DNA of 64,000 nt from a virus. A program made the translations under genes and the position numbers. Positions 3,840 through 46,706 of this stretch are shown piece by piece; the first letter of the stretch is position 1; the number at the start of each line of letters is the position of its first letter. The stretch lies in the IMG/VR virus record IMGVR_UViG_3300036834_000231, positions 32,283-96,282 of that record; one strand, 5' to 3'. The notes under the pieces were generated by a model, which was given only the letters and a program-made list of their open reading frames with translations, did not search any database and had not been told where the DNA came from.

Positions 3840-4022
3840 TCATTCTTCTTCCACCTTGCAAGCTCTGTACGTAATCTCTATCTCTCGATACAACTCCATG
3901 TGCGTCTCGCACACATGGCACCACGCAAGACGATAAGAACACAGGAGGTCATTGCCGAAAAGCTCTGCGCCATTATCGAAGATGTGGCCGCAATTGGGGC
4001 AACGATAGGCAGTTGAGGTCAT
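3840..4022 (-). CDS. small zinc-ribbon protein (60 aa)
   Basis: The start MTSTAYRCPNCGHIF overlaps the ligase stop as ATGA (4022-4019), so translation is coupled to the ligase. CPNC (8-11) and CHVC later in the sequence form a plausible four-cysteine zinc ribbon, and the tail is acidic. Function unknown. Position between ligase and Ku suggests it belongs to the repair module. Confidence 0.65.
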   Translation of the reverse strand: MTSTAYRCPNCGHIFDNGAELFGNDLLCSYRLAWCHVCETHMELYREIEITYRACKVEEE

Positions 4023-4915: not shown

Positions 4916-4995
4916 ATATATACGAGTGCTAACAGTATAGCACATAAATAATATACGGAAAAATTAGCCGGGTCGAGACCGGTTATGCTTTGGTC

Positions 4996-5505
4996 ATGGC
5001 TTCCGCCGCGCCGCCGGTCGATCGCTGCGAATTGATCGATGGGTGTGAGGTCGTGAAGCCGCTAGCCAAAAAGCTGCATTTTCTCGCCCAGTCTTATTTG
5101 GCATTCGCCCTGCGCCGCGATCTGCCGGCGCGTTTCGTGTGCGGCGCCGAATTGAGCATCCTTTGCGGCGCGAACCGGATTGCGCCGGACGTCGTCGTGA
5201 CGACGCGCCAGGCGCGCTTCGTCGACGGGTGTCTGGCCGATCCGCCGCTGCTCGCGGTCGAAATTCTCTCGCCCGGCCTAACGATTCCCGGTTTGTTTCA
5301 CAAAGCCCAGCGCCTCATCGACAGCGGGGCGCCGCAGGTGTGGATCATTCTGCCCGAGCGGCGCCAGGCCTGGTCGATGAGGTCCCAGGAAATCGCGAAG
5401 ATGGCGATCTATCTTTCGGCCGACTTCCCGAGTTGCGGCGAGGGTCGAATCGATCTGCGCCTCTACCTGCCGGATCTGTGGGAAGACATAGAGCAAATAA
5501 AGTAG
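4996..5505 (+). CDS. Uma2-family (DUF820) protein
   Basis: Of the 169 residues, NRIAPDVVVTT, LLAVEILSPG and RLIDSGAPQVWIILPERR match the Uma2 layout, a PD-(D/E)XK-like fold predicted to be nuclease-like. The Asp (PDV) and Glu (VEI) of the core are present. The start is taken at ATG 4996, with TTG two codons upstream as the alternative. It is transcribed away from the ligase. Biological role of Uma2 proteins is poorly known. Confidence 0.8.
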   Translation: MASAAPPVDRCELIDGCEVVKPLAKKLHFLAQSYLAFALRRDLPARFVCGAELSILCGANRIAPDVVVTTRQARFVDGCLADPPLLAVEILSPGLTIPGLFHKAQRLIDSGAPQVWIILPERRQAWSMRSQEIAKMAIYLSADFPSCGEGRIDLRLYLPDLWEDIEQIK

Positions 5506-5660: not shown

Positions 5661-6260
5661 TTGATCGAGCCATTAAGCCTAGAGCAACAGCAATGGGTCG
5701 AGTCCATGTTGCCTTTGGCACGCAAGATCGCCGACTGGACGTACCACCGTTATTCGAGGGCTCTCGGCATGAGCCGCGACGACATTCACCAAGAGGCCTG
5801 CCTGCTGCTCTGTTATGCGGCGCGCCGCTACAATCCTGAGAAACTAGATTCCTTCCGCATCTACGCCTGGATGCGGCTACGCAGCCTACATGTCGATTTG
5901 CTACGCCAGCAGTATGGCCGCGATGACAATCCAGATCCCTCCCGGCGGATTCAGTTGTTGAGCCTGGACGCCCCCATGGACGGCGGCGACGGCGAAACCT
6001 ATCTGGCCTTCTTTGAGAATCACGGCGCCGAGGCGGGTTTTCGGCAGCGCGTCGAGAACAGCCTATACCTCGATCATTTAATGCAGCCGCTGAACCCGCG
6101 TTACCAGCAGATTTTCATGGCGTTCCGCGAAGGCAAATTGAAAAGCGAGGTGGCGGCGGAACTCGGCGTCAACTTCAGCCGAGTCTCGCAAATCTACAGC
6201 GCCGGGCTTGAGACGATCCGCAAGGCGGCGGGCATCGAATCGTTGCCGGTAGCGGCGTAG
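5661..6260 (+). CDS. sigma-70 family RNA polymerase sigma factor
   Basis: The 199-residue product has a region-2-like part (ARKIADWTYHRYSRALGMSRDDIHQEACLLL..YNPEKLDSFRIYAWMRLR) and a C-terminal helix-turn-helix (GKLKSEVAAELGVNFSRVSQIYSAGLETIRK), the FliA/SigF-like order of sigma factors without region 1. It could redirect host polymerase to phage promoters such as the recurrent TGATATC box. The start is uncertain: TTG 5661 is the longest, and ATG 5706 is an alternative. Neither has a clear ribosome binding site. The 155 bases upstream hold no convincing gene. Confidence 0.85.
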   Translation: MIEPLSLEQQQWVESMLPLARKIADWTYHRYSRALGMSRDDIHQEACLLLCYAARRYNPEKLDSFRIYAWMRLRSLHVDLLRQQYGRDDNPDPSRRIQLLSLDAPMDGGDGETYLAFFENHGAEAGFRQRVENSLYLDHLMQPLNPRYQQIFMAFREGKLKSEVAAELGVNFSRVSQIYSAGLETIRKAAGIESLPVAA

Positions 6261-14974: not shown

Positions 14975-15496
14975 TCATTTCCGTTCGCGCAGCTCGCGCC
15001 AAACCTCGGCCAGGCTGATCGTGGCGCCGTTCGTCAGCTTAAACTCCTCCAAGCGATCGAGTTGTCGACGCTCGCGGTTCCAAATCCAGGCGCTCTCGGC
15101 TTGCGGGTCGGCGAGGTACACCTGCTCGATGCCGATACGGACGTACTCTTCGCACTTGGCCAGGACTCGCGTCATGGCGTCGTCCGGAGACAGAATCTCG
15201 ATCACTATCTCGATCTGACCGGGCTCGGTCGGGTAAGGCGTCGGGATGCTCTGCCGGCCGGCGGCGACATCCGGCCGCGGTGCGAACTCGGGATCCAGCC
15301 GCAGATCCAATTCCGTCGCCGCCTTGTAGCCCGCTCGCCTAAGTGCCTCGCTCAAAATCACTTGCAGTAGGGAATGCAGCCAGGTGGCCATGCTTTTTTC
15401 GACCAGCGCGCCGTGCCAGAATTCGTACGGTCGCTCGCTCGATTGATAGAGCAGCGCAAACTCTTGAAAAGTGAGCGGTCCGGCTACGGCGGCCAT
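14975..15496 (-). CDS. Uma2-family protein
   Basis: Of the 173 residues, PRPDV, IEIVIEILSPDD and KCEEYVRIGIEQVYLADP match Uma2, with the Asp and Glu of the PD-(D/E)XK-like core present. The start at 15496 (MAAVAGPLTFQEFALLY) is chosen because two upstream ATGs overlap the TGGCATGAT box. Same strand as the next Uma2 gene. Confidence 0.8.
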   Translation of the reverse strand: MAAVAGPLTFQEFALLYQSSERPYEFWHGALVEKSMATWLHSLLQVILSEALRRAGYKAATELDLRLDPEFAPRPDVAAGRQSIPTPYPTEPGQIEIVIEILSPDDAMTRVLAKCEEYVRIGIEQVYLADPQAESAWIWNRERRQLDRLEEFKLTNGATISLAEVWRELRERK

Positions 15497-15573
15497 GTCT
15501 TCAGCCATCATGCCACGGCAGGTAAACCACTACTTCTTTGAGTCTCGGTTCGGTCGAGCCACCGAGCAGTCTC

Positions 15574-16134
15574 CTACAAGTTCACGCCCGCGAAAATCTC
15601 AGGGAGGGCAACTTCGAACGGCCATTCCATGCGGCCCGCCCGAATGATTTCCGGGGTCGGATCTTCGGGCCTGTAAACCAGTACAACCTGTTTGGTTAGT
15701 TCGACCTCTACGACTGCCCCGGCTCCTGCTTCGAGGTACAAGCCCACTTTCTGCAAACGTTTCGCCCGGCGCTCCGAGGGCGAAATCACCTCGACCACAA
15801 AGAGCGGCTTTCCCTCGAACCAGCGGCCGCCACGCAGCGAATCCTCGTAATCGCCGGCTGAGAGCACCATCAAGTCCGGACCAGGCACGTTGTCGCGGCC
15901 GGTCGGCGATTGGAAATGCCAGCCGGCTTCCCGGACCACCCGGTGAAGCAGGAACTGCTTCTCTAACAACCGCTCCAGATTCTTGACCACGACCACATGG
16001 GGCGTCATCGGAAAGGGCGCCAAGACCTGCTCTCCTTCAATCAGCTCATCTCGGTACCAAATCCCGTCGATGACTCGCTCGTCGAGCTTCGCGTATTCTG
16101 CCGCGGTCCAGAGCGCATCCGCTTTCGCAGCCAT
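15574..16134 (-). CDS. Uma2-family protein
   Basis: The 186-residue product has the N-terminal DALWTAAEYAKLDERVIDG...ELIEGE part, VPGPDLMVLSAGD and FVVEVISPSERRAKRLQKVGLYLEAGAGAVVEVEL, a full Uma2 layout. Start 16134 is 6 bases after TGGCATCAT, indicating a leaderless message. Confidence 0.82.
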   Translation of the reverse strand: MAAKADALWTAAEYAKLDERVIDGIWYRDELIEGEQVLAPFPMTPHVVVVKNLERLLEKQFLLHRVVREAGWHFQSPTGRDNVPGPDLMVLSAGDYEDSLRGGRWFEGKPLFVVEVISPSERRAKRLQKVGLYLEAGAGAVVEVELTKQVVLVYRPEDPTPEIIRAGRMEWPFEVALPEIFAGVNL

Positions 16135-16167
16135 GCAGCCATGATGCCACGGCCCGCCGCGCCCATT

Positions 16168-16290
16168 TGCCACAACCCCGCGCTTTTTCCCCCCAACTTC
16201 AGCACTTTTCCCTCCGACTTGGCCACTTTTCCTTCAACTTTCCTCCCTTTTTGCCCTTTTCCCGCCCCTTTTCTTATCCTGCTGCAAAAC
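16168..16290. repeat. polypyrimidine stretch with degenerate 21-base repeats
   Basis: About 120 bases are very pyrimidine-rich on plus. On minus, units like AAAAGTGGCCAAGTCGGAGGG and AAAAGTGCTGAAGTTGGGGGG follow each other. Together with 16291-16469, where I see no convincing gene, this is the non-coding gap before brnT. Confidence 0.5.
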
Positions 16291-26755: not shown

Positions 26756-26895
26756 GCACGAGGAAGAACGCGGCGGCGGTCGCGTTGGGGCGGCGCGGAG
26801 GGAAGAACAGCCGGAAGAACTTGAGTGAGGAGCAGAAGAGGGAGTTGGGGCAGCGGGCTGCGGCGGCCCGCTGGTCGAAGGAGAAGAAGGGATGA
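26752..26895 (+). CDS. small basic RNPxxVALGRxGG-type protein (47 aa)
   Basis: RKNAAAVALGRRGGKNSRKNLSEEQKRELGQRAAAARWSK is a widespread short basic motif (..N..AVALGR.GG...L+ ...R..A..AA.ARW) found in phage and bacterial proteins. Overlaps both neighbours as ATGA. Probably binds nucleic acid; role unknown. Confidence 0.7.
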   Translation: MSTRKNAAAVALGRRGGKNSRKNLSEEQKRELGQRAAAARWSKEKKG

Positions 26896-27398
26896 CTCAC
26901 CTTGCGAAATACCACACGGAACTGATCGATCACCAGGAGATCCAAAAGCCATTGCCCAAGCGTTTACATGCCATCGTTCAGGCTCGCCTGATCTTTTTCC
27001 TTATGCAGTGGGGCGGCCCCCTGCAAACGCAGGTTCTGTCCGAGCAGAACGTCCTCTGCGGCGCGGATCGGCTGGTTCCGGATATCGCGGTGGTATCGAC
27101 GGAGGCGCCAGATTACGGCGGGGATTTGAAAGCCCTAGACGTACTGTTGGCGATTGAGATTGCCTCGCCCGGGCAGAAGTATAACCAGCTCGTTGCGAAG
27201 TGCGATCGATTGCATAAGGGCGGGGCCCGACTGTGTTGGATAGTTCTTCCCGCTGAGCGCCAGGCGTTCATGTACTGGAGAGAGGAAGTGCCGGTCGAGG
27301 TCGAGGTGCTACGAATCTACAACGGTCGAGCCGGCGATTGCACGATCACAACGGCTGACCTGTTCGCTGGCCTAGAACGCTACGAGGAGACGCTCTGA
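26892..27398 (+). CDS. Uma2-family protein
   Basis: The 168-residue product starts MTHLAKYHTELIDHQEIQKP and has CGADRLVPDIAVVST, LLAIEIASPGQ and KCDRLHKGGARLCWIVLP, a full Uma2 core. Its closest relative in the window is the gene at 38846-39358 (same YHTELID.QEIQKP start). The ATG overlaps the preceding stop. Confidence 0.82.
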   Translation: MTHLAKYHTELIDHQEIQKPLPKRLHAIVQARLIFFLMQWGGPLQTQVLSEQNVLCGADRLVPDIAVVSTEAPDYGGDLKALDVLLAIEIASPGQKYNQLVAKCDRLHKGGARLCWIVLPAERQAFMYWREEVPVEVEVLRIYNGRAGDCTITTADLFAGLERYEETL

Positions 27399-32268: not shown

Positions 32269-32291
32269 GACGCCTCGCCCGTTTTGTTGCC

Positions 32292-33015: not shown

Positions 33016-33071
33016 CGCCCATCTGCGCCAATTATAGCGGGCAAAAGCACGGTGTCCCGGCGATACCTCTG

Positions 33072-33087: not shown

Positions 33088-34380
33088 TTGTCGAAAAAGA
33101 ATGACCTTTCGGCCTCGGAAAAAGCTGTCAAGGCGCTGGTGAAGCAGGACAAGCCGGCGCCGGAAAAACACCCCATCGTCTGCGTGCAGTGCGCGAAACA
33201 GGCCATGATCGCGAAACGCCCGCCCACCGGTTGGAAGAACCACGAAGAGGCGTATTGGTGCAGCGAGTGCTGGAACAAGCGCTATGTGCTGCGCGCCATC
33301 TCGCTCGAGGTTACCCAGTCGATGGATTGCACTTGGGACGAGCTCTTTAAGAAGCTCAAGGTCATGTGGGAGCAGACGACGCAATTGAGCAATTATCTGG
33401 TGACTCAGCTCGTCATCGCCGACGTGCACCGCCGCCCGAACGAAGCGAAGAAACCCGCCGAAGACCCGAATAAAATGCCCGGCCGGCCCGAGACGTACTT
33501 TTATCCCGAACTCGGCGAACAGTTTCCCGATCTGCCGCCGCCCGTGCGCGCGAGCTTAGAGAAGAGCATCACGGCGAAGTACAGCAAAAAACGCTGGGAC
33601 GTCATCTGGTCCTGCCGCGCGAGCTTGCCGATCTTCCGCTACCCGCAGCCTTATCCCATCCCGGCGCAATGCTGGTCCGCGGAGCTTGTCGACGGCTGGC
33701 CGATCGTCAACATGCGCATCGGCGAAGGGCGCCTGCGCTTGCGGCTCAAAGGCATGCCGAAGTATAAGCGCCAGTTGATCAGCTTTCGGGATATCTTGCG
33801 GGGCTACGCGGTCCCGGGCGAAGCCGCGTTGTATGAAAAGGGCTCGACCCTCATGTGCAAATTGGTCGCCTGGCTGCCGCGCCGGGCGCAGGACGGCAAC
33901 TATGGGGACAACGTGCTCTTCGTGCGTTCCACGCCCGACGCCTTGCTCGCCGCCTTAAATGTGAAGGAAGAGAAGCTCTGGCAGTATCACGCCAGCCATA
34001 TTCACAATTGGATCGCCGAACACCGCCGGCGCTTGCAGGAGTGGGCCGACGACAGCAAGGCCGAAGCCCGCCCGCATCCCGCTTTGAACGCCCGCCGGGC
34101 GGCCGCCGCCACGAAGTACCACCACCGCATGAATACTTGCGCCGATCAAGCCGCCAGCTACCTCGTGCGCTATGCCGTGCGCCGCAAATACGGCGTCTTG
34201 CGCTATGACGACTCCGATAAGAGCTGGTGCCCCTTATTCGTCTGGTTCAAGCTGGAGGATCGCATCAAAACGCTGTGCGACGAGTTCAATGTGCGCTTTG
34301 AGAAGGTCGAACCCGCCGCCGCCGAAGGTACTGAAACTACTAAAACCAAGGGTAGAAAGAAAAAGGCCATGCCCGCGTAG
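33088..34380 (+). CDS. possible TnpB/Cas12-superfamily protein
   Basis: Seen: an N-terminal zinc pair (C32, C35 and C58, C61), a helical part (TTQLSNYLVTQLVIADVH), SLPIFRYPQPYPIP (179-192), a beta-rich part (GRLRLRLKG; LISFRDILRGYAVPGE), a long basic helix (HRRRLQEWADDSKAEARPH), and LRYDDSD (371-377) followed by LFVWFKLEDRIKTLCDEFNV. The order recalls the wedge domain and RuvC-II of TnpB/Cas12 proteins. Missing: a clear RuvC-I Asp, the RuvC-III Asp and the usual C-terminal zinc finger, so catalysis is doubtful and a dead effector is possible. TTG start after TGATACTGT. A hairpin-rich RNA and a repeat array follow on the same strand. The assignment is inference. Confidence 0.75.
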   Translation: MSKKNDLSASEKAVKALVKQDKPAPEKHPIVCVQCAKQAMIAKRPPTGWKNHEEAYWCSECWNKRYVLRAISLEVTQSMDCTWDELFKKLKVMWEQTTQLSNYLVTQLVIADVHRRPNEAKKPAEDPNKMPGRPETYFYPELGEQFPDLPPPVRASLEKSITAKYSKKRWDVIWSCRASLPIFRYPQPYPIPAQCWSAELVDGWPIVNMRIGEGRLRLRLKGMPKYKRQLISFRDILRGYAVPGEAALYEKGSTLMCKLVAWLPRRAQDGNYGDNVLFVRSTPDALLAALNVKEEKLWQYHASHIHNWIAEHRRRLQEWADDSKAEARPHPALNARRAAAATKYHHRMNTCADQAASYLVRYAVRRKYGVLRYDDSDKSWCPLFVWFKLEDRIKTLCDEFNVRFEKVEPAAAEGTETTKTKGRKKKAMPA

Positions 34381-34390
34381 TAGAGTGGAG

Positions 34391-34552
34391 TGGGCTACCG
34401 ATAGGCCCAGCGCGGTCACTGCCTGGAACGCTTGCCGACCAGAGCACCTGCGAGAGGCTGGTTCGCCGGCAACGGCGAAAGAAATACTCAGGATATTCGG
34501 CGCTTGCGCCGTCAGCCCTGGGGGCTACCTTTTCATCCCGACGCCCGAGGCT
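34391..34552 (+). ncRNA. candidate structured RNA with antisense copy of array motif
   Basis: This non-coding stretch between the 430-residue gene and the array holds successive hairpins: TGGGC/GCCCA (34391-34409), TTCGCCG-GCAA-CGGCGAA (34462-34479, GNRA tetraloop), CGGCG-CTTG-CGCCG (34498-34511) and AGCCC/GGGCT (34514-34526). At 34544-34552 is CCCGAGGCT, the exact complement of AGCCTCGGG found in the array and its only antisense copy. Its G can pair with C or T at the variable position. It could be a tracrRNA-like or scaffold RNA. No expression evidence. Confidence 0.5.
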
Positions 34553-34572
34553 CGCCCTTTTTCTGGGAAATA

Positions 34573-36554
34573 GCTTCGGTAGACTCCGATTTCGATCAAC
34601 CTCTGGACGCTTCGGTTAAACGTCAACAAATGGCGCTGCGGTTTAAGGGCTTCGGTACGGTCCGCGTCGCATGGCCTGGTCCCGTCATTGCCGACCCTGC
34701 TTTACCTGGAGGCCCGTCAAGCAAGGCAGCCTCGGGAGGTCAGCGAAGACGGAATAGTCAGTTTGGCGAGAAGTCACCCAGCGAGTGGCTATTTGGCGGC
34801 TAAGGGACGCTTCGGTTAAGTATTCAAGTCACAACGCTTTGCGCACTAAGCCTCGGGTCCCGTCGCACTTGATACGCCTCGGTAAGGAAGACGGGATTGG
34901 CTTCGGTCCAGTTGGACTAATCGTTGAGTTGGCCTCGGTTTGCAGGGTTACGTCGGCCTTTAACGGTGGCGGCTTCGGTCTCTACACGGGAGCCTCGGGT
35001 GGCAGGATTTTGAGGTTAAAAACCGACAGCCTCGGTTTTGGTGGGCCTGGAGCCTCGGGTAAAGTTCACGTGAAATGGGAGGCCTCGGTGGAGTATTTGA
35101 ATGTCTTCACATGTAGCCTCGGGTGAAGTTTGATTTCCGCTTCGGCGTCCGCTTGTCTAGCTTCGGGAAGTTCCTGCTTGGTTCGCAGCTTCGGATGAAG
35201 TTCGTTCCGCTTGGTGTCAGTGAGGGTCAAAGACTAGCTTCGGCAATAGCCTTAGCGACGAGCGCATGGCTTCGGGAACAATTGGAAGCCTCGGGACCGC
35301 ACTTTCACTGATTTTGCGTAGCCTCGGGTGAAAGTCCTAGTTGCCGCTTTGGTTCAGCTTCGGTTTGAAGGTATTGATTGGCTTCGGCTAGACGATGACC
35401 GCCGCCTCGGCAAGCACTGAAGGGAAACGTCTCGGCACCGCACTCTCCCAGAGATCGGTTGGAGCTTCGGGAAAAGCCGGGAAAAGTCCGTACGCTGGAG
35501 CTTCGGGAAAGATGAAGTGGGCTTCGGCACGCGCAAGTAGCCGCGGCGAAACGGCGAAACGCAAAGCCTCGGGTACGGTGCCCATAGAGCCTCGGCGTGA
35601 GAATTCTCAGTGGCCTCGGGAACAGAAACGCGGACTTCGAGGGATGAAGCTTCAGGACCAGTCCGAGCACGAGGTCGCCTCGGCCCCAGAATTATCAGTG
35701 AAGCCTCGGGACAGAGATCCGTCTTGCGAGCGAAGCCTCGGGATAAATGGCATGTGCAAGCCTCGGCGAGAACTAGCTTCGGCATTCGTTTGAGCAGAGT
35801 TATGGAATGGCCTCGGTGGTTCAAAGGATGGTCTCGGGTATTACGCTGTTGAATACGGCGGCTTCGGAGGACAAGCTGGAAGGAGCTTCGGTGTAGAGCG
35901 GCGGCCGAACGGTTGGCCTCGGCAGGTGCAGGAGCAGCTTCGGGCTTAGAGGGAGCGCGGTAGTATCGGGATCGAGATGTTAGACCTTGGTGGCTTCGGG
36001 GAGACAGATGGAGAGCCTCAGGCTAATCCCGATTAGGCCGGTCAGCCTCGGGTCCATTTGCCTCGACTGTTGGGGGTGGCTTCGGGGAGTTCTTCGAGGA
36101 CAAGGTAAGGGCCTCGGGGCAAGCAGAGGTGCGGCAGTGCCTCGGTAGCTGATCGGGTAACTTTGTAGCTTCGGGAGAAAGGGGTATGTGGGCTTCGGTT
36201 TCTGGCCGATGCGCGATAAGCGGCTTCGGTAATAAATTGGTAGCTTCGGTTCATTTGCGGCGGGCTGGTGGCTTCGGTTCATTTGCGGCGGGCTGGTGGC
36301 TTCGGTCCAGGGGCGAGTGAGTTATTCGGTGACGAGGGCTGGTAGCTTCGGTATCAGCCTTTGCAGCGCGCGCCAGATGCGGAATCAATCCTCCGTACGT
36401 TCGCTTCGGGAAAAGAAAAGGATTAGCCGTTGCGGCGGCGGCTTCGGTCACTCGATTTTTGCCGATGCGCGATACGGCGGCTTCGGTTTGACTACGCCGA
36501 CAGTCTCGGTTCATTTGCTGCGGGCTGGCTTCGGGGATGGTCTGGTAGCTTCGG
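34573..36554 (+). repeat. array of about 58 GCYTCGG motifs at irregular spacing
   Basis: By hand count 58 exact copies (34 GCTTCGG, 24 GCCTCGG) lie on the plus strand with none on the minus strand within the array. Start-to-start spacing is 16-80 bases, mostly 20-40. Near-misses (GTCTCGG, GCTTCAG, GCCTCAG) occur at 35430, 35649, 35831, 36015 and 36503. The sequence between motifs is mostly unique, but the last ten segments share pieces (36250-36298 is a tandem duplication). The phase is irregular, so the motif is not a codon repeat. The last 12 copies are all the TT form. It ends 17 bases before the convergent nuclease gene. Confidence 0.85.
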
Positions 36555-36570
36555 GACGCTCTCGATCCAT

Positions 36571-37050
36571 TCAATCCAGGGATGCGCTCGATTCCTGGAC
36601 AATCGTCAAAAACTCGCGCGTGCGCACGCGCCGCAGCGCGGACACAAGCATAGCGGTCTCGCCTTCGATGTTGATGGTGGGCCGGTAAATCGCTTCCTTC
36701 ATTACTTTGGTCGAGTATTCCTCGCACCATAACAATCCATAGTCCTGCTCTTGCACCTCGTCCGGGCCGATATCGACCAAATCGCGCTCCGAAATCAGCT
36801 TGGGCGGCGTCAAAAAGTAGCGGTAGCGGCCCATGCCGCCACGCGTGCTGCGGGTGTGCGGCTTGCTCTTGTTCGCGTTGAAATCGTTGCGGCTCACCTT
36901 GCATTCGACAAGATAGGAGGTCGAACACCGCCAGCCGATCGCATCGGGAATCTCGAAGGCCGCGCTCGACAGCTCGGAAAGCACGACCGAGCAGCGTTTG
37001 GTGTTGGTGAGCCATTGAACGGCGCGTCGGCGCAGGTCCTCGTGCGTCAT
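36571..37050 (-). CDS. PD-(D/E)XK nuclease-like protein
   Basis: IPDAIGW (D36) and LVECKVSRNDF (E49, K51) give the PD...E.K signature of the PD-(D/E)XK fold, with a following GGMGRYRYFLTPP stretch. It resembles MmcB-like and other small phage nucleases. The start 37050 is fixed by TGGTATCGT 6 bases upstream. The gene is convergent with the array, whose last motif is 17 bases from its stop. Confidence 0.8.
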   Translation of the reverse strand: MTHEDLRRRAVQWLTNTKRCSVVLSELSSAAFEIPDAIGWRCSTSYLVECKVSRNDFNANKSKPHTRSTRGGMGRYRYFLTPPKLISERDLVDIGPDEVQEQDYGLLWCEEYSTKVMKEAIYRPTINIEGETAMLVSALRRVRTREFLTIVQESSASLD

Positions 37051-37056
37051 TCTATG

Positions 37057-37077
37057 ACGATACCACTGTGATATCCT
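37057..37077. promoter_or_regulatory. divergent extended -10 boxes
   Basis: TGGTATCGT on minus (6 bases to ATG 37050) and TGATATCCT on plus (16 bases to ATG 37094, with GAGG between). Confidence 0.65.
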
Positions 37078-37093
37078 GCCGTGAGGTAAACGC

Positions 37094-37372
37094 ATGCCCT
37101 TCGATCGCGGATATTTTATGGCCGAGAGCGGCAACGCCTGCCGCTGGCTGGCGATCCGGCGTGGCGATAAATTAGGCGTGGATATCGACTGGAAGCGGGA
37201 GCCGTCTCTCGCGGAGCAGGATGAATTCAACTGGTTCTTTAAGGAACGTTGCCGCGAGCTTCCCGGAATTGAATTCGCGCTGCAATCGGCGCTGGTGGAT
37301 AATCCCAAGGAAGTCATCACGCGCTTTCTAGAAACGGGCGATCCCGGCGTCAAGACGCGCCCGATCGAGTAA
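37094..37372 (+). CDS. hypothetical protein (92 aa)
   Basis: MPFDRGYFMAESGNACRWLA ... DEFNWFFKERCRELPGIEF. No family. Followed after 4 bases by the 37377 gene. Confidence 0.7.
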   Translation: MPFDRGYFMAESGNACRWLAIRRGDKLGVDIDWKREPSLAEQDEFNWFFKERCRELPGIEFALQSALVDNPKEVITRFLETGDPGVKTRPIE

Positions 37373-37376
37373 TTCC

Positions 37377-38432
37377 ATGAGTGCAAGGCGACTGCGGATG
37401 CGCTTCGGCGATGCCGAACTTATGGTCGAGGAGACCAATCTCACCCGGGAGGAGCTGCAGAAAAACATCGAGGAAAACTTGCCGGATGTCTGGCGCCTCT
37501 GCTATCCGCGCTGCTACGAGGACAAGCGGCTAGGTGACTACTACTCCCCGAAATTCTTGGCTTTCGATTTGGCGGCGAGCGTTCTCAAGCGCGCCATGCC
37601 GGGTTCCGCGCGCGCCGAACTGTACGATTATCTGGTGGCGAACCAGCTCGTGCGCTTTGGCGTGCCGACCTACTTCGTCTCGCGTGAATTGATCGAAGCG
37701 ATCGCCAAGACCACCCCGCCGCTCTCGATCGCCTGGCACGACATGCAGCTTCCCTTCGATGCCGCCGCGTTTATGCTGCCGAAAGGCACGCTGCGCCATA
37801 GCGAGGAGGGAGATTGCCCCTACATCGCCTATGCGCGCTTGAAGAAGGACGAGACCTATCTCTCGCCGCTCTCGCCGATTCCCGGTAAGCGGCACGGCAT
37901 CACCAACGGCGGTTTTGTTCTTCTCACTAGCACCATCCAGCCGCCGCATACCTATCACTACCATTGGCCCTACGTCTACGAAGGAGGCGTCTCGATGCCC
38001 GTCATCCGGCTGAATGAACTGGACGCTTGCATGGATCGGTCCGCCGAAGTGGACGATACCAGCCGTTGCTATTTCCCGGAAGGTCTCTTAACGCCCGATC
38101 ACGACGTGATCCGCGCGGCCGCCCATTACGTGTTCGGCTGCATCCTGTTAATGCTGCATCGGCCCGATCTGATCGAGCCAGGCACGCTGCTCAAGCGCAT
38201 CGCGAAGCCGAATAAGCCGCCGCGCGAATTCTGGACGCCGCATTTTCTCGGCCGCAAATATCGCGTGCGCCGGGAGAACGCGAGCGAAAGCGAAAGGGGG
38301 CCGACCGGCGAAGTGCTGCGCCGGCGAGGCGGCTGGGTCATGGGGTACTGGCGCGAGCAGCACTATGGGCCGCAGTGGTCGCTCTCGAAACACGTCTGGA
38401 TCGAGCCGCTCTTCCGCCAGGGAGTCGGCTAA
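37377..38432 (+). CDS. large conserved phage protein, possibly AcrVA2-like
   Basis: The 351-residue product is helical in front (LPDVWRLCYPRCYEDKRLGDYYSPKFLAFDLAASVL), has a central part with TYHYHWPYVYEGG, and ends RRRGGWVMGYWREQHYGPQWSLSKHVWIEPLF. The RGGW..GYWR.Q.YGP..S..K..WIEP ending recalls phage proteins grouped with the anti-CRISPR AcrVA2. I hold that link loosely. The stop overlaps the next ATG (TAATG). Confidence 0.7.
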   Translation: MSARRLRMRFGDAELMVEETNLTREELQKNIEENLPDVWRLCYPRCYEDKRLGDYYSPKFLAFDLAASVLKRAMPGSARAELYDYLVANQLVRFGVPTYFVSRELIEAIAKTTPPLSIAWHDMQLPFDAAAFMLPKGTLRHSEEGDCPYIAYARLKKDETYLSPLSPIPGKRHGITNGGFVLLTSTIQPPHTYHYHWPYVYEGGVSMPVIRLNELDACMDRSAEVDDTSRCYFPEGLLTPDHDVIRAAAHYVFGCILLMLHRPDLIEPGTLLKRIAKPNKPPREFWTPHFLGRKYRVRRENASESERGPTGEVLRRRGGWVMGYWREQHYGPQWSLSKHVWIEPLFRQGVG

Positions 38433-38713
38433 TGAGACAAGATCCGCGCGAGCGGCTCCTCGCAAAATTCCGCAAGGCGCTCAATTTAGTGCGTACCCAG
38501 CCCGAGCAGTGCAAAGGCGACGCGGAGTTTGTGCGCGGGCTCGACGCCATGCTCGTCTGGGTCATCGAAGCGATCGAGGTCGACCAGCATAACGAGGTGG
38601 TCGATAGGGCGCTCTTTAGCCTTACCGGCAAAAGACTGGCGGAATTGGAAAAAGAGCTTCCCAAGGAGCCTGGAGCAACCGTTACCCACTTCTCTCTTGT
38701 TCCGAAGAAATGA
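38432..38713 (+). CDS. hypothetical helical protein (93 aa)
   Basis: MRQDPRERLLAKFRKALNLV ... GLDAMLVWVIEAIEVDQHNE. Coupled to the previous gene. No family. Confidence 0.7.
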   Translation: MRQDPRERLLAKFRKALNLVRTQPEQCKGDAEFVRGLDAMLVWVIEAIEVDQHNEVVDRALFSLTGKRLAELEKELPKEPGATVTHFSLVPKK

Positions 38714-38732
38714 GAACGGCTCGCTGAAACGG

Positions 38733-38849
38733 CTACCGGTAAGCAAATAAGAATGGGGCGCCGAGGCAGGCTATTCCGATCACGAGCAGCAGCCACATGA
38801 TCACCAGCCCGGTTTTGCCGAGCAAGAGACGGATGTACCACGGGATCAT
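38733..38849 (-). CDS. small membrane protein (38 aa)
   Basis: MIPWYIRLLLGKTGLVIMWL continues LLVIGIACLGAPFLFAYR: one strong membrane segment. Its ATG overlaps the stop of the upstream Uma2 gene (ATGA). Confidence 0.6.
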   Translation of the reverse strand: MIPWYIRLLLGKTGLVIMWLLLVIGIACLGAPFLFAYR

Positions 38850-39358
38850 AAAGCACCCTGCGCTTCATACATTTCCAAGCTCGCGAACAGTTGAGCCGTC
38901 TCAATCGCACAATCCTCTGGGCGACCATCTGCGAAGATCCGCAACACGGAGACTTGCTCTGGCAATTCCGACCGGCGATGCATAACTGCTTTGCGCTCTG
39001 ACGGAAGGATCACCCAACACATCCGCGCTCCGCTCTCATGTAATCGTTCGCACTTCGCAATGAGCTGGCTGTACTTCTGCCCGGGAGAAGCAATTTCGAT
39101 CGCCAGAGTAATGTCCGCAGCCCTTAAGTCGCCGTCATAAAAAGGGCCGTCCATCGCGATAAGCGTAATGTCCGGAACGAGCCGATCCTCTCCGCAAAGC
39201 ACGTTTTGCTCAGGCAGAACCAGCGCCGGCATATTGCTAGCCCATTGCATCAAGAAGAAAATTAATCGTCCCTGAACAATGGCGTGCAGAGTCTTCGGCA
39301 CGGGCTTTTGGATCTCCTGATTATCAATTAGTTCGGTGTGATAGATTGCGGCGCTCAT
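38846..39358 (-). CDS. Uma2-family protein
   Basis: Starts MSAAIYHTELIDNQEIQKPV; CGEDRLVPDITLIAMD, LAIEIASPGQKYSQLIAKCERLHESGARMCWVILP complete the Uma2 core. A paralogue of 26892-27398. Overlaps the second Uma2 gene by 4 bases, giving a tandem pair. Confidence 0.85.
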   Translation of the reverse strand: MSAAIYHTELIDNQEIQKPVPKTLHAIVQGRLIFFLMQWASNMPALVLPEQNVLCGEDRLVPDITLIAMDGPFYDGDLRAADITLAIEIASPGQKYSQLIAKCERLHESGARMCWVILPSERKAVMHRRSELPEQVSVLRIFADGRPEDCAIETAQLFASLEMYEAQGAL

Positions 39359-39906
39359 GCGAAGATCTCCGCGAGTGGAATCCGTACTTCGGGCAGCGGA
39401 TGCGGTGTAGCGATGTCATCCTGGACTTCTTCGGCCGCGCGATCCGGGTAGATGAGGCGCACGCTTTGCTGGTCGTCGTCCACAATCCAGCACTCGTAGC
39501 ACCCTTCCCGCAGATAGGAGTGGGCCTTGCGCATGATCTCCGCTTCGGTATTGCCGGGCGACAAGACCTCAATTGCGAGCAAAGGCCGGTAGGCCAGCCG
39601 CTGCTTGGCGCCGCGCTTGGTTGCCGCCTCCCAATCCACTCGTCTGACGACCATCACGTCCGGCACGATTTCGCTGGGCCGGCCATCGAGCGGATTGGGC
39701 GTCTTCGTTAAGTACACCCCGACTTCGGCGCGCACCACATATTGCCGCCCGAGCGCCCGCAGCGCATCGACCAAGCGCTCGATGATTTCCCGGTGGCGAC
39801 TGCTCGCGCACGGGCTCACGAGCAGCTCTCCTGCGAGCAGCTCTTCAAAGCCACATTCCAGTTCCGGTCGCGCATAATATTCCTCCGTTGTCAGCAGTTC
39901 CGCCAT
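39355..39906 (-). CDS. Uma2-family protein
   Basis: Start MAELLTTEEYYARPE (39906). Core: IVPDVMVVRR, LLAIEVLSPGNTEAEIMRKAHSYLREGCYECWIVDDD. 183 residues. The ATG overlaps the preceding stop (TGATG). Confidence 0.85.
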   Translation of the reverse strand: MAELLTTEEYYARPELECGFEELLAGELLVSPCASSRHREIIERLVDALRALGRQYVVRAEVGVYLTKTPNPLDGRPSEIVPDVMVVRRVDWEAATKRGAKQRLAYRPLLAIEVLSPGNTEAEIMRKAHSYLREGCYECWIVDDDQQSVRLIYPDRAAEEVQDDIATPHPLPEVRIPLAEIFA

Positions 39907-40325
39907 CAATTCACCTCCACGGCGGGCAAATCCGCCACGCACTTGTGCAGCAGCTCGGGAAAGTAGCCGGTTGACCACTCGACGCCGGCGGGCATCCGGC
40001 TCTCCATGTTCGCCGCCAGCCGTTCGAGCGCCGCTACCACGGTGGCCATATCGGAGCCGGCAGGCAGCATCTCGCCGCCCCGGATCTCGTACTCGCGCTC
40101 GCCCGGGTAATGGCTCGAAAACTCGTAGATCGCGTACACGATCGCCCGGCGGTCTGCGTGCTGGCGGACGAGAAAATGCCATTTGGCGGTCCGATTAGCC
40201 CGGTCTGGCACTTCCCCGCCGTCGTCCAGGCTATCTTTAGCCGACGCAATGATTGGCCAGTCCTCTTTGGTGATCCGCACGGGAGCTTGCCCCGTTAGGG
40301 TAATCGTTAGTTTGTCGGGTTCCAT
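39906..40325 (-). CDS. hypothetical protein (139 aa)
   Basis: MEPDKLTITLTGQAPVRITK ... WPIIASAKDSLDDGG, later RQHADRRAIVYAIYEFSSHYPGE. Mixed alpha/beta. No family. First of the four-gene minus-strand set ending at 38733. Confidence 0.7.
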   Translation of the reverse strand: MEPDKLTITLTGQAPVRITKEDWPIIASAKDSLDDGGEVPDRANRTAKWHFLVRQHADRRAIVYAIYEFSSHYPGEREYEIRGGEMLPAGSDMATVVAALERLAANMESRMPAGVEWSTGYFPELLHKCVADLPAVEVN

Positions 40326-40388: not shown

Positions 40389-40420
40389 AAGAGCCTGCTC
40401 AGTGGCGAGTGGCCTGATTG
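40389..40420 (+). repeat. short dispersed element, copy 3 (partial)
   Basis: AAGAGCCTGCTCAGTGGCGA matches copies at 25053 and 26405, then diverges into the end of the RHH gene. Confidence 0.4.
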
Positions 40421-40842
40421 ATCGCCTGGCGTGTCGATGAGGCATCCCGTTCGGGCGCGTTCTTGGCCAACCCGGCTGCCAGCAGCGTGCGGACCGTGTC
40501 CATGCGGTTGCGGAAGCGGTGATGGAAGCGAAAATCCTCAACCTCCGCCATCATTTCCGGGTCGAACTGCACGCAGATCTGGACATGACCGTTTCGCAGA
40601 TCGGACGGCGCAACCTCTGGTGCCTTCTTGCGCTTCGCGTAGCCGTCCAAGCCGATGCGAATTAGGGCGCGGATCGCATCCATGCGGTTGCGGGCGCGCG
40701 TCGTAAAGCGGAACTCTTCGATCTCATCCAGAATCTTCGGACTCAGTTTCAAGCCGATCGTGGTCAGCGCGTAAATGCCCCTCGATTCGTAGTCCTTTTT
40801 GGCCGCCGCGAGATCGGCTGGGCGAATTAATTTAGGTGGCAT
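40399..40842 (-). CDS. double ribbon-helix-helix DNA-binding protein
   Basis: Two units of similar sequence stand in tandem: IGLKLSPKILDEIEEFRFTT followed by RNRMDAIRALIRIGL, and ICVQFDPEMMAEVEDFRFHH followed by RNRMDTVRTLLAAGL. Each is a ribbon-helix-helix (strand then two helices), so one chain may act like a dimer. CATACT lies 7 bases upstream of ATG. Likely a transcriptional regulator. Confidence 0.78.
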   Translation of the reverse strand: MPPKLIRPADLAAAKKDYESRGIYALTTIGLKLSPKILDEIEEFRFTTRARNRMDAIRALIRIGLDGYAKRKKAPEVAPSDLRNGHVQICVQFDPEMMAEVEDFRFHHRFRNRMDTVRTLLAAGLAKNAPERDASSTRQAINQATRH

Positions 40843-43302: not shown

Positions 43303-43584
43303 ATGTGGGTCGAACGCAATTGCTACGGCAAAATGATTCGCGTGGTGGCCACAATCTTGGCGCGCCACCCGTACGGCCGGGGCAGGCATCACGTCGAGCT
43401 ACGTTTAGACTGCGGACACGTCATTCAAGTGGTAAAAAGCCGATTGAAATCGACCGATCCGAACAGGAAAGGCCGGGAAATCGACCGCATCTCCTGTCCG
43501 GTCTGCCTCACAGAGGAAACCTACCGGACCAAGCGTTGGCAGCGCGAAGACCCGTATTGGAACATCAAGAAGCGCTACCTCTGA
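43303..43584 (+). CDS. small cysteine-containing protein (93 aa)
   Basis: LRLDCGHVIQVVKSRLK and RISCPVCLTEETYR suggest a zinc site (CGH...CPVC). It lies between terS and terL and may have a packaging-related or regulatory role. No family. Confidence 0.7.
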   Translation: MWVERNCYGKMIRVVATILARHPYGRGRHHVELRLDCGHVIQVVKSRLKSTDPNRKGREIDRISCPVCLTEETYRTKRWQREDPYWNIKKRYL

Positions 43585-43802
43585 CCACGACGTGCGCCTT
43601 TATCGCCGCGTTTGTGCGTTTCTAATCCCAAGCGGATGAGCGAGCGGAGCGCCTCCATGCGCGTCGAAGCGCGGGTGGCAAAGCGGTAGTCCTCGATCGC
43701 TTGCAAGATCTCCTCGTCGAGCAGCAATGGAATTTGAACGGTTTGGATCTTATCCTCTTTGATGGGGCGGCCGCGTTTCCGAACAGCGGTTTTTGCTGGC
43801 AT
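43575..43802 (-). CDS. ribbon-helix-helix protein with AT-hook (75 aa)
   Basis: KRGRPIKED is an AT-hook-like start, then IPLLLDEEILQAIEDYRFAT and STRMEALRSLIRLGLE, matching each unit of the 40399-40842 regulator. ATG follows a TATATATATA run. It faces away from terL, so it probably controls the shared AT-rich region 43800-43838. Confidence 0.75.
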   Translation of the reverse strand: MPAKTAVRKRGRPIKEDKIQTVQIPLLLDEEILQAIEDYRFATRASTRMEALRSLIRLGLETHKRGDKGARRGQR

Positions 43803-43838
43803 ATATATATATACTAGCAATATAACATATATATTTTT
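43803..43838. promoter_or_regulatory. AT-rich divergent promoter between RHH gene and terL
   Basis: ATATATATATACTAGC and AATATAACATATATATTTTT fill the gap in GC-rich surroundings. Similar TATATATATGCC starts occur before the ligase, and near 40842. Confidence 0.45.
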
Positions 43839-46706
43839 ATGGCCGAACAGAGCGCCACGCTCATGCGCGCTTTGCTGGTCGAAGCGGGCGAGCGCCGCCA
43901 GCAGAAGAAACGCAAGGATGCGAAACGCGAGCTGGCTCATGCCAGTCTGCTTGATTTCATCGAGTACACCAAACCGGCTTATCGCGCCGGCTGGTTTCAT
44001 CGGCAGGTCTGCGCGATTCTCGAACGCTTCCTCGCCGACGTGCTCGCCGGAAAACGTCCGCGCATCATCATCACGGCGCCCCCGCAGCACGGCAAGCTGC
44101 TCGCAATGGAGACGCCCACCTTTACTCCCGGCGGGTGGAGAGCGCACGGAGATTTAAAACCGGGCGACTTCGTTTTCGGCCGCTACGGACAACCGGTCGA
44201 GGTGCTGGCCGTCAGCGAGCCCGACTGGGCTGATCGGGAAGTCGAGTTTACCGATGGCGGCGTTATTCATTGCCACGCAGCCCATGAATGGGTGGTGTTC
44301 GATCGAAGAGGTGGCGCTCTTGCCCGCACCTTAGAGACTCGCCAGCTAGAACGTGAGTGTTGCCGCTGGCAGGTCGATCCGAGCATCATACTTCCCCAGA
44401 AGGAAACCCGGCGGGGCATCGTGGATATCCGCCGATGTAAACCGCGAGAAGGGCGCTGCATCCAGGTCGAAGGCGGCGTGTATTTGGCGGGTGAGACGTT
44501 TATTCCCACGCATAACAGTGAGATGGTCTCGCGGCGCTTTCCCTGCTGGGCGATCGGGCGCCATCCGGGGTTGCGGTTTCTGTGCGGCAGCTACGGGGCG
44601 ACTTGGGCCGAGCAGCTTTCCGGGGACCGGCAGCGCATCCTCGACCTGCCGGAATACAAGGAGTTGTTTCCGAACTTCAAACTATCCAAGCGGCGCGCCG
44701 ATTACTTGGAGGTAGCTGGCGCGGACGGCTTCATGCTGGCCGCAGGCGTGGATTGCGGCATCTCGGGCCGGTCGAGCGACATCGGGCTCATCGACGATCC
44801 GGTGCGCGGCTATAAGGACGCGGTTTCCGAACTCACGCGCAACGCCATCTGGAACTGGTACAAGACAGACTTTTATTCCCGGCTGCAGAGCGGCGGCGGC
44901 GTGATTGTCATGATGTGCATGACCGGCGATACGCGGGTGCTGCGCTCGGATGGTAGCGAAACATTGTTGCGAGACATCCGGCCCGGTGATGGGGTTGCAA
45001 CATACCGAGATGGCGCGCTTTCCACGTCAAAAGTACTGAACTGGATCAATCATGGGCCTGATTCTGTGTATGAAATCAGGATGAGTTCCGGCATAACCGT
45101 CAAAGCGAACGAGCGGCATCCATTCCTGGTTCGCGTTGGCGAGGAACTGCAATGGCTGAGACTGAGAGGCTTACGCCCGGGCCAAGAAATCTGCCGGGTC
45201 AAAAGGGCAAGTGGAAGGGCAAGAAGTGTGCTTTCGAAGGCTGTGGCGAGCCAGTCGTATGCCGCAGCTATTGCAACTCGCACTACAACAGAAAGCGTTG
45301 GGCTGATGGAGTACGTCCACCCTCAATCAATCCCGCGTCCAGACGGGCAGCTCGCGTCAAGTACCGATACGGCATCAGTGCTGAAGAGTACGACCGAAAG
45401 TTCGCTGAACAGGCCGGATTGTGCGCGATCTGTCGGAAGCCACCGGGAAAAAACGTACGCGCGCATTGGGGCGGCAAGCTGTGCGTGGATCACTGCCACG
45501 ATACGGGCACCGTTCGCGCGCTTCTCTGCAACGACTGCAACCTCGCCGCCGGATACATTCAAACCGCCGACGCCGCAGAAGCTCTCGCAGCTTACCTCCG
45601 ACTTCACGCTGGACCGGATCGAGGAGATTCGAGCGGCGAAAAGTGAAGATGTCTTCGACATAGAGGTCGCGGAAACGGAGAACTTTATCGCCAGCGGTCT
45701 AGTCAGCCACAATACTCGCTGGCACATGGATGACCTGATCGGCCGGCTGCTCGACGAGGCGCGGGCGGGCAGCGGAGACCAATGGCAGGAGTACAATTTC
45801 CCCGCTTTCGCGGAAGAGGACGAGCCGAATCGCCGGCAGGGCGAGCCGCTCTCGCCCGAGCGCTATGACCAGCAGTCGCTTGAATCGATCAAAAGGGTGC
45901 AGGGCTCTTATGCCTGGAGCGCTCTTTATCAGGGTCGCCCGACCCCGGCCGAAGGACTGCTCCTGCGGCGCGATTACTGGCGTTATTGGAACGCGAACGA
46001 TTTGCCGCAGTTCGAGCTTATCGTCATCTCGCTCGATTGCACCTTCAAGGTTACGACTGACTCCGATCATGTCTCGCTGCTCGCAATCGGCTTCGTCGGC
46101 TCGCGTGGCTATCTGCTCGACCGCACTTGCGAACGCATGGGCTACGTTGCAACGAAAGCCGAGGCGCTGCGGCTCGCGCGCAAGCACAAGGCGCATGTGC
46201 TCTTGATCGAGGATGCGGCGAACGGACCGGCGGTATGCGAGGAATTGCGCCGCAACAGCGGACAGCTTACCGTGATTCCGCTGCCGACCGAGGGCGGGAA
46301 ACTGGCGCGCGCCTGGCCTTTTTCAGCGGACCTCGAAGCGGGCAACGTGCTGCTGCCCGAGGATCAGAACTGGTCGGGGGAAATCGTCGATTATGCCTCG
46401 AAGTTTCCCGCGACGCCGATGGATCACGACATCGACGCACTGACGCAGGCCTTCAACTGGCGGCGCGAAAACCTGCACGGCTTGTTTGCCTATTACGAAG
46501 CGGAGGCGAATCGCATTGTGAATCCCGATCAAAAAACCATGGTCAAGGTGGCGCTCGCGGAAGAGACGCCCGCTTGCCCGCAGTGCCAATCGTTCGCGGT
46601 GCGCTTGTTCGGTTCGACGTACCGCTGCAATCAATGCGGGGTCGAATGGCAGAAGCCGGGCGCGGAGCCCGAAGCGCCCACCACGCGGGCGCGCCAGCTT
46701 ACTTGA
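43839..46706 (+). CDS. terL: large terminase subunit with two inteins
   Basis: The 955-residue precursor would splice to about 549 residues. The ATPase P-loop PPQHGK (81-86) continues after intein 1 as SEMVSRRFP. Walker B is LIDDPV (317-322). VIVMM joins TRWHMDDLIG after intein 2. Nuclease acids D733 (SLDCTF), E791/D792 (IEDAANG) and D862-D866 (MDHDID) are present. A zinc ribbon (C913, C916, C930, C933) ends the protein, an uncommon addition. TerL translocates DNA into the prohead and cuts it. It follows terS. Confidence 0.93.
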   Translation: MAEQSATLMRALLVEAGERRQQKKRKDAKRELAHASLLDFIEYTKPAYRAGWFHRQVCAILERFLADVLAGKRPRIIITAPPQHGKLLAMETPTFTPGGWRAHGDLKPGDFVFGRYGQPVEVLAVSEPDWADREVEFTDGGVIHCHAAHEWVVFDRRGGALARTLETRQLERECCRWQVDPSIILPQKETRRGIVDIRRCKPREGRCIQVEGGVYLAGETFIPTHNSEMVSRRFPCWAIGRHPGLRFLCGSYGATWAEQLSGDRQRILDLPEYKELFPNFKLSKRRADYLEVAGADGFMLAAGVDCGISGRSSDIGLIDDPVRGYKDAVSELTRNAIWNWYKTDFYSRLQSGGGVIVMMCMTGDTRVLRSDGSETLLRDIRPGDGVATYRDGALSTSKVLNWINHGPDSVYEIRMSSGITVKANERHPFLVRVGEELQWLRLRGLRPGQEICRVKRASGRARSVLSKAVASQSYAAAIATRTTTESVGLMEYVHPQSIPRPDGQLASSTDTASVLKSTTESSLNRPDCARSVGSHREKTYARIGAASCAWITATIRAPFARFSATTATSPPDTFKPPTPQKLSQLTSDFTLDRIEEIRAAKSEDVFDIEVAETENFIASGLVSHNTRWHMDDLIGRLLDEARAGSGDQWQEYNFPAFAEEDEPNRRQGEPLSPERYDQQSLESIKRVQGSYAWSALYQGRPTPAEGLLLRRDYWRYWNANDLPQFELIVISLDCTFKVTTDSDHVSLLAIGFVGSRGYLLDRTCERMGYVATKAEALRLARKHKAHVLLIEDAANGPAVCEELRRNSGQLTVIPLPTEGGKLARAWPFSADLEAGNVLLPEDQNWSGEIVDYASKFPATPMDHDIDALTQAFNWRRENLHGLFAYYEAEANRIVNPDQKTMVKVALAEETPACPQCQSFAVRLFGSTYRCNQCGVEWQKPGAEPEAPTTRARQLT
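44097..44516 (+). other. intein 1 (class 3-like mini-intein) in TerL P-loop
   Basis: Residues 87-226 interrupt HGK|S. The first residue is Leu instead of Cys/Ser. Instead the class 3 residues can be placed: W151 two after H149 (block B), C207 in GRCIQV (block F) and T224 in FIPTHN (block G). It ends H225-N226 with Ser +1. About 140 residues and no endonuclease, so it can splice but not home. Confidence 0.85.
44916..45713 (+). other. intein 2 (class 1) in TerL, with out-of-frame HNH gene
   Basis: Residues 360-625. The N-terminal part CMTGDTRVLRSDGSETLLRD ... RHPFLVRVGEELQWLRLRGLRPG and the C-terminal part EDVFDIEVAETENFIASGLVSHN|T form a standard splicing domain with Cys1, His-Asn end and Thr +1. 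The linker between them (about 455-585) is Ser/Thr/Ala-rich filler in the intein frame because it is read out of frame over an HNH gene. Confidence 0.88.
45152..45646 (+). CDS. HNH (endonuclease VII-like) gene nested in intein 2, other frame
   Basis: The 164-residue product has a zinc knuckle (C26, C31, C37, C41) and YGISAEEYDRKFAEQAGLCAICRKP then CVDHCHDTG (D113-H114-H116) and ALLCNDCNLAAGYIQ (N130), the layout of recombination endonuclease VII/HNH proteins. It is in a different phase from terL. Its first 15 or so codons overlap intein N-domain code and its end overlaps the start of the intein C-part. Probably the homing endonuclease of the element, expressed as a free protein. No ribosome binding site is obvious. 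Confidence 0.88.
   Translation: MAETERLTPGPRNLPGQKGKWKGKKCAFEGCGEPVVCRSYCNSHYNRKRWADGVRPPSINPASRRAARVKYRYGISAEEYDRKFAEQAGLCAICRKPPGKNVRAHWGGKLCVDHCHDTGTVRALLCNDCNLAAGYIQTADAAEALAAYLRLHAGPDRGDSSGEK

Follow-up and report, generated by a model that had tools for sequence, protein, structure and literature searches.

Type V-F systems of the clustered regularly interspaced short palindromic repeats (CRISPR) kind, with the effector Cas12f (Cas14), order the parts of their trans-activating CRISPR RNA (tracrRNA) and CRISPR RNA as scaffold, anti-repeat, repeat and 3´ guide, and adaptation genes are often absent in them. Dead Cas12f proteins (dCas12f) act with an extracytoplasmic-function (ECF) sigma factor in RNA-guided transcription, and RNA-based anti-CRISPRs are solitary repeat units that mimic the repeats of a host system. 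Two further systems come close: the TldR proteins, phage-borne, TnpB-like nuclease-dead repressors that are derived from TnpB and have one guide each (PMC13418256), and TIGR-Tas, in which Tas proteins with a Nop domain occur with regular dual edge/loop repeats (UG...CCA boxes) in 36-nucleotide units (PMC12045711). Here we analyse a repeat array and its neighbouring gene in a tailed-phage record of 96,282 bases (IMG/VR IMGVR_UViG_3300036834_000231), which carries a portal, structural genes and a terminase with an intein. The window, in which all positions are given, is the stretch of 64 kb from base 32283 to base 96282 of this record. We consider it rather probable that the locus is a phage-encoded multiplex RNA-guided DNA-binding module, consisting of a dead Cas12f-like effector, a tracrRNA-like scaffold and a guide array with a minimal repeat. 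Its three parts are:

33088 to 34380, plus strand: gene of P0001, a 430-residue Cas12f-like protein with a TTG start, matching the PADLOC Cas12f model; its frame alone has a coding signal (+0.40).
34381 to 34572, plus strand: candidate tracrRNA-like scaffold, the 192 bases between gene and array; non-coding, without signal in six frames.
34573 to 36554, plus strand: the array, 58 exact GCYTCGG repeats with 57 gaps of 9 to 73 nucleotides; non-coding.

The one-sidedness of the array, reported in a preliminary description of this DNA, was confirmed: the plus strand from 34573 to 36554 contains 58 copies of GCYTCGG and the minus strand none, and an order-1 Markov model of this stretch predicts about one plus copy (1.0, maximum 6 in 2000). 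The complete window has 91 copies compared with a mean of 37.7 and a maximum of 57 in shuffled sequences, and 33 copies, both strands together, lie outside the array. Close pairs of the motif were found 39 times in forward and not once in reverse orientation across the 96-kb record (two for a control with the reversed pattern), and when the rest of the record was checked this paired form was confined to the array. No equal density of the motif was found elsewhere in the window or in the 96-kb record, and the six-frame coding signal of this record revealed no reading frame through the array; the preliminary description had named such a density, or a frame conserved in related phages, as refuting results. 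Hexamer coding scores over the array were negative in all six frames, compared with +0.40 for the upstream and +0.48 for the downstream gene, and the codon phase is random, with gap lengths modulo 3 distributed as 20/19/18. The earlier statement that phase and spacing vary and that this is no codon repeat thus holds, and a protein-coding repeat was rejected owing to the random phase and the lack of a coding signal in six frames.

Variation within the core is limited to C or T at position 3, the remaining six positions being letter-perfect in 58 copies over 2 kb, and just 5´ of the core (position -1) 50 of the 58 copies have A or G. GCTTCGG is the only form among the last 12 copies, as had been noted. 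Since GCTTCGG contains C(UUCG)G, the array might form a structured RNA of tetraloop hairpins, an alternative that the preliminary description had raised. The data do not bear this out: the flanking arms pair at 2.50 of 6 positions, compared with 2.43 ± 0.16 expected at random positions, and 24 of the 58 copies have CCTCGG (about 40% with CTCG in place of TTCG), which provides no UNCG loop. Such hairpins are therefore extremely improbable.

The repeats follow each other with a start-to-start spacing of 16 to 80 nucleotides, and all 57 gaps have at least 9 nucleotides, whereas about 15 shorter ones would be expected by random placement (P<5e-5). Twelve gaps have a length of at least 38 nucleotides, and six of these contain a repeat with one mismatch; shuffled gaps gave 1.0 and none of 2000 shuffles reached six. 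Among the six internal repeats are three GTCTCGG and two GCYTCAG. These five, a duplication and the gene adjoining the array are located as follows:

35429 to 35435, plus strand: variant repeat GTCTCGG within a long gap, compatible with U·G wobble pairing.
35649 to 35655, plus strand: decayed repeat GCTTCAG within a long gap.
35831 to 35837, plus strand: variant repeat GTCTCGG within a long gap.
36015 to 36021, plus strand: decayed repeat GCCTCAG within a long gap.
36503 to 36509, plus strand: variant repeat GTCTCGG within a long gap.
36243 to 36305, plus strand: recent tandem duplication, with identical 21-nucleotide gaps at 36250-36270 and 36278-36298 plus repeats.
36571 to 37051, minus strand: convergent open reading frame (ORF) adjoining the array, PD-(D/E)XK-like by eye, with a coding signal of +0.48 on the minus strand.

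Because decayed repeats are present inside long gaps, the true number of units is nearer 63-64. Together with the absence of gaps below 9 nucleotides, they show that a unit consists of the repeat and 9 or more variable bases, and that many of the long gaps comprise two units, the repeat between them having decayed. Except at the distal end the gaps are mutually unrelated, and the similarity between neighbouring gaps outside the last 12 was not significant (P=0.11). The duplicated gap at 36250-36298 and the similar stretch at 36503-36527 had been described correctly. A third relative of the duplicated gap lies at 36510-36527, and another distal pair of gaps has 14 nucleotides in common; for the duplication and its third relative the scores were 42 and 31 versus a shuffle maximum of 25. 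The duplications at this end are consistent with the earlier suggestion that the array grew most recently beside the nuclease gene, the convergent ORF, for which profile searches gave no family match. The Chi octamer GCTGGTGG is indeed present at the junction of the two duplicated gaps, possibly by chance, and represents effectively one event since both gaps are copies of each other.

The identity of the upstream gene rests on a match of P0001 to the PADLOC Cas12f model PDLC01699 (E=3.3e-7, 27.9 bits), in which residues 68-372 are aligned to positions 4-303 of the 399 of the profile. The first 261 residues alone were sufficient for a match (E=1.9e-6, residues 68-197), the reversed protein gave none, and P0001 had no match in Pfam, PHROGs, NCBIfam and PDB sequences. 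From its N-terminus the protein shows a CxxC...CxxC element, a REC/WED-like region and a RuvC-like C-terminal part, and it is the RNA-binding REC/WED part that carries the match. Other genomic matches of PDLC01699 lie mostly in the RuvC half, whereas that of P0001 rests on the N-lobe. Aligning P0001 to solved segments of Cas12f and to genomic Cas12f/TnpB proteins revealed that the GxDxG aspartate of RuvC-I is absent, that the RuvC-II glutamate is replaced by D (LRYDD) and that P0001 ends ahead of the zinc-ribbon (TNB)/RuvC-III segment, with the register of the alignment kept up to its end. An hhalign comparison with four RuvC segments reached P=0.013 only, in the expected register. The single-sequence AlphaFold model had a predicted local distance difference test score (pLDDT) of 43 and was unusable, and its top Foldseek match, Cas12h (E=0.03), was for this reason not used as evidence. 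Judged from these alignments, the most fitting description of P0001 is that of a truncated Cas12f-like protein whose nuclease is naturally dead. The lost nuclease, together with the mutated repeats inside long gaps, could also mark a decayed relic, that is, the drifting remains of a guide array whose system has been inactivated. This is very improbable in our view, since six invariant positions amid freely varying gaps need selection and since the effector frame is intact and has a strong coding signal.

The leader between gene and array contains three elements that suggest a tracrRNA-like scaffold:

34462 to 34479, plus strand: stem-loop of 7 bp with a GCAA tetraloop (-12.0 kcal/mol, z -3.8 for a region that was chosen after being seen).
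34489 to 34520, plus strand: interrupted stem-loop around CGGCGCUUGCGCCG (-12.7 kcal/mol, z -1.9).
34544 to 34552, plus strand: anti-repeat CCCGAGGCT, predicted to pair with AGCCTCGGG / RGCYTCGG; its core is the minus-strand copy of the motif at 34545-34551.

This anti-repeat is the sole minus-strand copy of the motif from 34068 to 38760, and the 192-base leader would be expected to contain about 0.04 minus copies at the density of the other parts of the window (13 in about 62 kb). The first repeat starts 20 nucleotides downstream of it, and in the predicted fold positions 34545-34552 are paired with the first repeat at 34572-34579 over 8 bp (8/8). A continuation with T, which pairs with A or G at position -1, is found in only two of the 14 minus copies of the window, the anti-repeat included. 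An Rfam search gave no match. In the predicted duplex the U and the G of the anti-repeat face the degenerate A/G at position -1 and C/T at position 3 of RGCYTCGG, so that at each degenerate position of the repeat the anti-repeat can accept either of two bases. GTCTCGG, the commonest variant core in the long gaps, is likewise wobble-compatible with it. It is chiefly this fit to wobble pairing that favours an RNA:RNA over a protein:DNA interaction.

A protein:DNA interaction is nevertheless the main rival. The repeats would then be binding sites in double-stranded DNA, as in origin iterons, a partition site or a transcription-factor or decoy array, and the Cas12f-like gene would be coincidental or itself encode the binder. 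A strict, strand-asymmetric core of 7 bp and a minimum spacing as from steric exclusion would suit such sites, the phage has ribbon-helix-helix (RHH)-like and sigma genes, and the array sits between convergent genes. However, the repeats are not palindromic and not regularly spaced, and no helical phasing was found at 9.5-12 bp, which led us to reject a helically phased operator array. With a GC content of 0.55-0.59 the array is also not AT-rich like most origins. Since such sites would in addition leave the anti-repeat by the first copy, the wobble match of the degenerate positions and the Cas12f-like neighbour unexplained, we regard them as unlikely.

Pairing between RNAs would also be expected for an RNA sponge, an RNA anti-CRISPR in which about 60 mini-repeats titrate a tracrRNA-like RNA or a Cas12f-like ribonucleoprotein of the host and the gaps are filler. 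The mini-repeats are complementary to a tracr-like element, the conserved core is set between diverged gaps of variable length, and whole units were recently duplicated, all of which would be in line with a sponge. The complementary element and the dead effector are however encoded by the phage, directly upstream, and a sponge would not need gaps of 9 or more nucleotides with unrelated sequences. We therefore consider a sponge improbable.

For an RNA-guided DNA-binding module, the parts could work together as follows. P0001 would be the naturally nuclease-dead, C-terminally truncated Cas12f-like effector, and the 192 bases behind its gene would give a tracrRNA-like scaffold ending in the anti-repeat CCCGAGGCU. 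The array would be the precursor of many guides, each unit consisting of a repeat of 7-9 nucleotides (RGCYUCGG) followed by a 3´ guide of about 9-45 nucleotides. The order of gene, scaffold, anti-repeat, repeat and variable stretch is that of Cas12f, which places the guide 3´ of the repeat. A single anti-repeat would pair with every repeat to form an RNA of the Cas12f tracr:repeat-guide type, and the first unit, joined to the scaffold in cis, would resemble a natural single-guide RNA. Loaded P0001 might then bind matching DNA without cutting it, resulting in repression, blocking or recruitment at many sites, probably in host genes or in those of competing elements and not in its own genome. 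The minimum gap of about 9-12 nucleotides would suit the short guides of a binder. What the data show is the statistics of the array and its lack of coding, the homology of P0001 to Cas12f with the loss of its catalytic residues, and the anti-repeat with its complementarity; we infer transcription and processing of the array, the orientation of the guides, their pairing in vivo, binding to DNA and the targets. That the gap sequences are mostly unrelated, as in guides, that the array has no hairpin, helical phase or coding signal and that the record has no Cas1 was counted in favour of the module. On the further question whether the dead Cas12f and about 60 guides on a minimal 7-8-nucleotide repeat, with one shared scaffold, serve as a multiplex regulator of genes in the host or in rivals, and whether duplication and drift let the guides evolve with no need for adaptation genes, we see the balance as even.

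The preliminary description had already proposed a guide array, which is supported in part. The Cas12f match, the anti-repeat with the stem-loops and the minimum gap length argue for it independently of each other, but no target was found for any guide, and a guide function is therefore something that we infer. Several observations speak against the proposed module. Gap lengths vary far more than in known guide arrays. In the phage's own 96 kb the gaps had no more matches than their shuffled or reversed versions, for which reason self-targeting was rejected; BLAST searches of phage and plasmid records gave no significant match, and in 781 genomes of Acidobacteriota and Alphaproteobacteria, chosen since relatives of the portal occur there, matches were at chance level only. 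One of the best external BLAST matches spans a repeat. These negative results for targets are weak evidence either way. The whole leader folds no better than shuffled sequences (z 0.1 to -0.7), pairing with the anti-repeat is not significantly extended into the flanks of the repeats (z -1.7 upstream, +1.2 downstream), and no promoter or terminator is prominent around the array. The last 169 residues of P0001 alone did not match PDLC01699, so that the Cas12f match comes mostly from one half of the protein. P0001 has no close relative in viral contigs, genome contigs and phage records, and no similar array was found; in viral contigs with dense GCYTCGG the dense stretches are mainly codon-phased coding repeats, and none resembles the present array. 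With a single example of the locus, no covariation test is possible.

Portal relatives (23 viral records, mostly fragments like the 67 genome loci) contained no relative of P0001 and no irregular array. The search with the PADLOC Cas12f model missed P0001 in its own record, and thus its negative results carry no weight. A search of the literature, preprints and most subscription journals excepted, revealed no comparable phage array. Another viral contig has an irregular and highly repetitive stretch with ATCCAGC (L061:3229-3960), the related units of which are spaced 29-89 bases apart; it is unlike the present array.

Should the proposed module exist, its guide-array architecture would be distinct from those of CRISPR, TIGR and OMEGA, and a guide repeat could shrink to a single duplex of 7-8 bp with a shared scaffold. 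Phages could then have tens of guides for binding instead of cutting, a device of natural origin for multiplex CRISPR interference in which each guide takes up about 34 bases. Dead Cas12f proteins, to our knowledge so far found with single or few guides, would be linked to long arrays, and the diversification of a guide repertoire without Cas1-Cas2 would become directly testable. CRISPR finders do not see the combination of dead effector, anti-repeat and irregular mini-repeat array, which could be searched for systematically.

Further genes and elements of the phage were noted. Neighbouring genes on the minus strand encode Ku (2904-3686, PF02735, E=4.7e-40) and an ATP-dependent DNA ligase (4019-4945, PF01068, E=1.9e-10), possibly an end-joining pair. 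Six ORFs belong to the Uma2 family of putative endonucleases (4990-5505 and 26892-27398, plus strand; 14975-15511, 15574-16173, 38846-39358 and 39355-40182, minus strand). An intein (PF14890, E=1e-14) interrupts the terminase large subunit (43839-46706, plus strand). A palindromic sequence that resembles an operator, GTATCAC(T/C)GTGATATC, recurs in full or as one half at 33070, 37067 and 41642 on the plus and at 58033, 58201, 58369 and 58591 on the minus strand, and one such site lies 10 bases ahead of the start of the Cas12f-like gene. The ORF at 40399-40842 (minus strand) has two tandem RHH-like segments, FRFTTRARNRMDAIRALI / FRFHHRFRNRMDTVRTLL, without a Pfam match, and a similar single segment is present in 43575-44147 (minus strand).

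When the locus is compared with known systems, it falls outside the definitions of a CRISPR array, of TIGR-Tas and of TldR. P0001 is homologous to Cas12f of type V-F over about 300 residues and can be assigned to this family. The proposed order of scaffold, anti-repeat, repeat and 3´ guide would be that of type V-F, with a predicted anti-repeat of 8-9 nucleotides located, at this single locus, 20 nucleotides before the first repeat and beside the effector. The intact RuvC site of type V-F (D, E, D), in contrast, has no counterpart in P0001, the C-terminus of which is gone, and the core of the phage repeat has 7 nucleotides, at most 9 with flanks, compared with about 30-37. CRISPR arrays in general have uniform spacers and near-identical repeats of about 21-48 nucleotides, whereas the phage gaps range from 9 to 73 nucleotides. 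No Cas1 was found in the 96-kb record; cas2 was not searched for.

A dead, shortened Cas12f-like protein is common to the phage locus and to dCas12f, the comparison being made at family level only. The PDB contains further natural chains named 'nuclease-deactivated Cas12f' (9n9c and others, 365 amino acids). The sigma factor nearest to P0001 has regions 2 and 4 only (ECF-like; 5661-6260, plus strand) and is a possible partner of the dead Cas12f, but unlike in dCas12f it is not adjacent, being 27 kb away, and the array has about 58 units. TldR shares with the locus that it is phage-borne and RuvC-dead, has guides beside the gene and binds RNA-guided without cutting, as would be the case here, but the phage locus has a Cas12f-type N-lobe and an array of about 58 units instead of a single guide. 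TIGR-Tas likewise comprises guide arrays of phages in which the repeats are very short, the spacers short and Cas1/Cas2 absent; the present array, however, has one motif only, irregular spacing and no UG/CCA edge/loop repeats, and P0001 matched Cas12f and not a Nop domain. With RNA-based anti-CRISPRs, finally, the locus has phage-encoded repeat mimics in common, but those are single repeats of host type, whereas here about 58 repeats come with a scaffold and an effector of their own.
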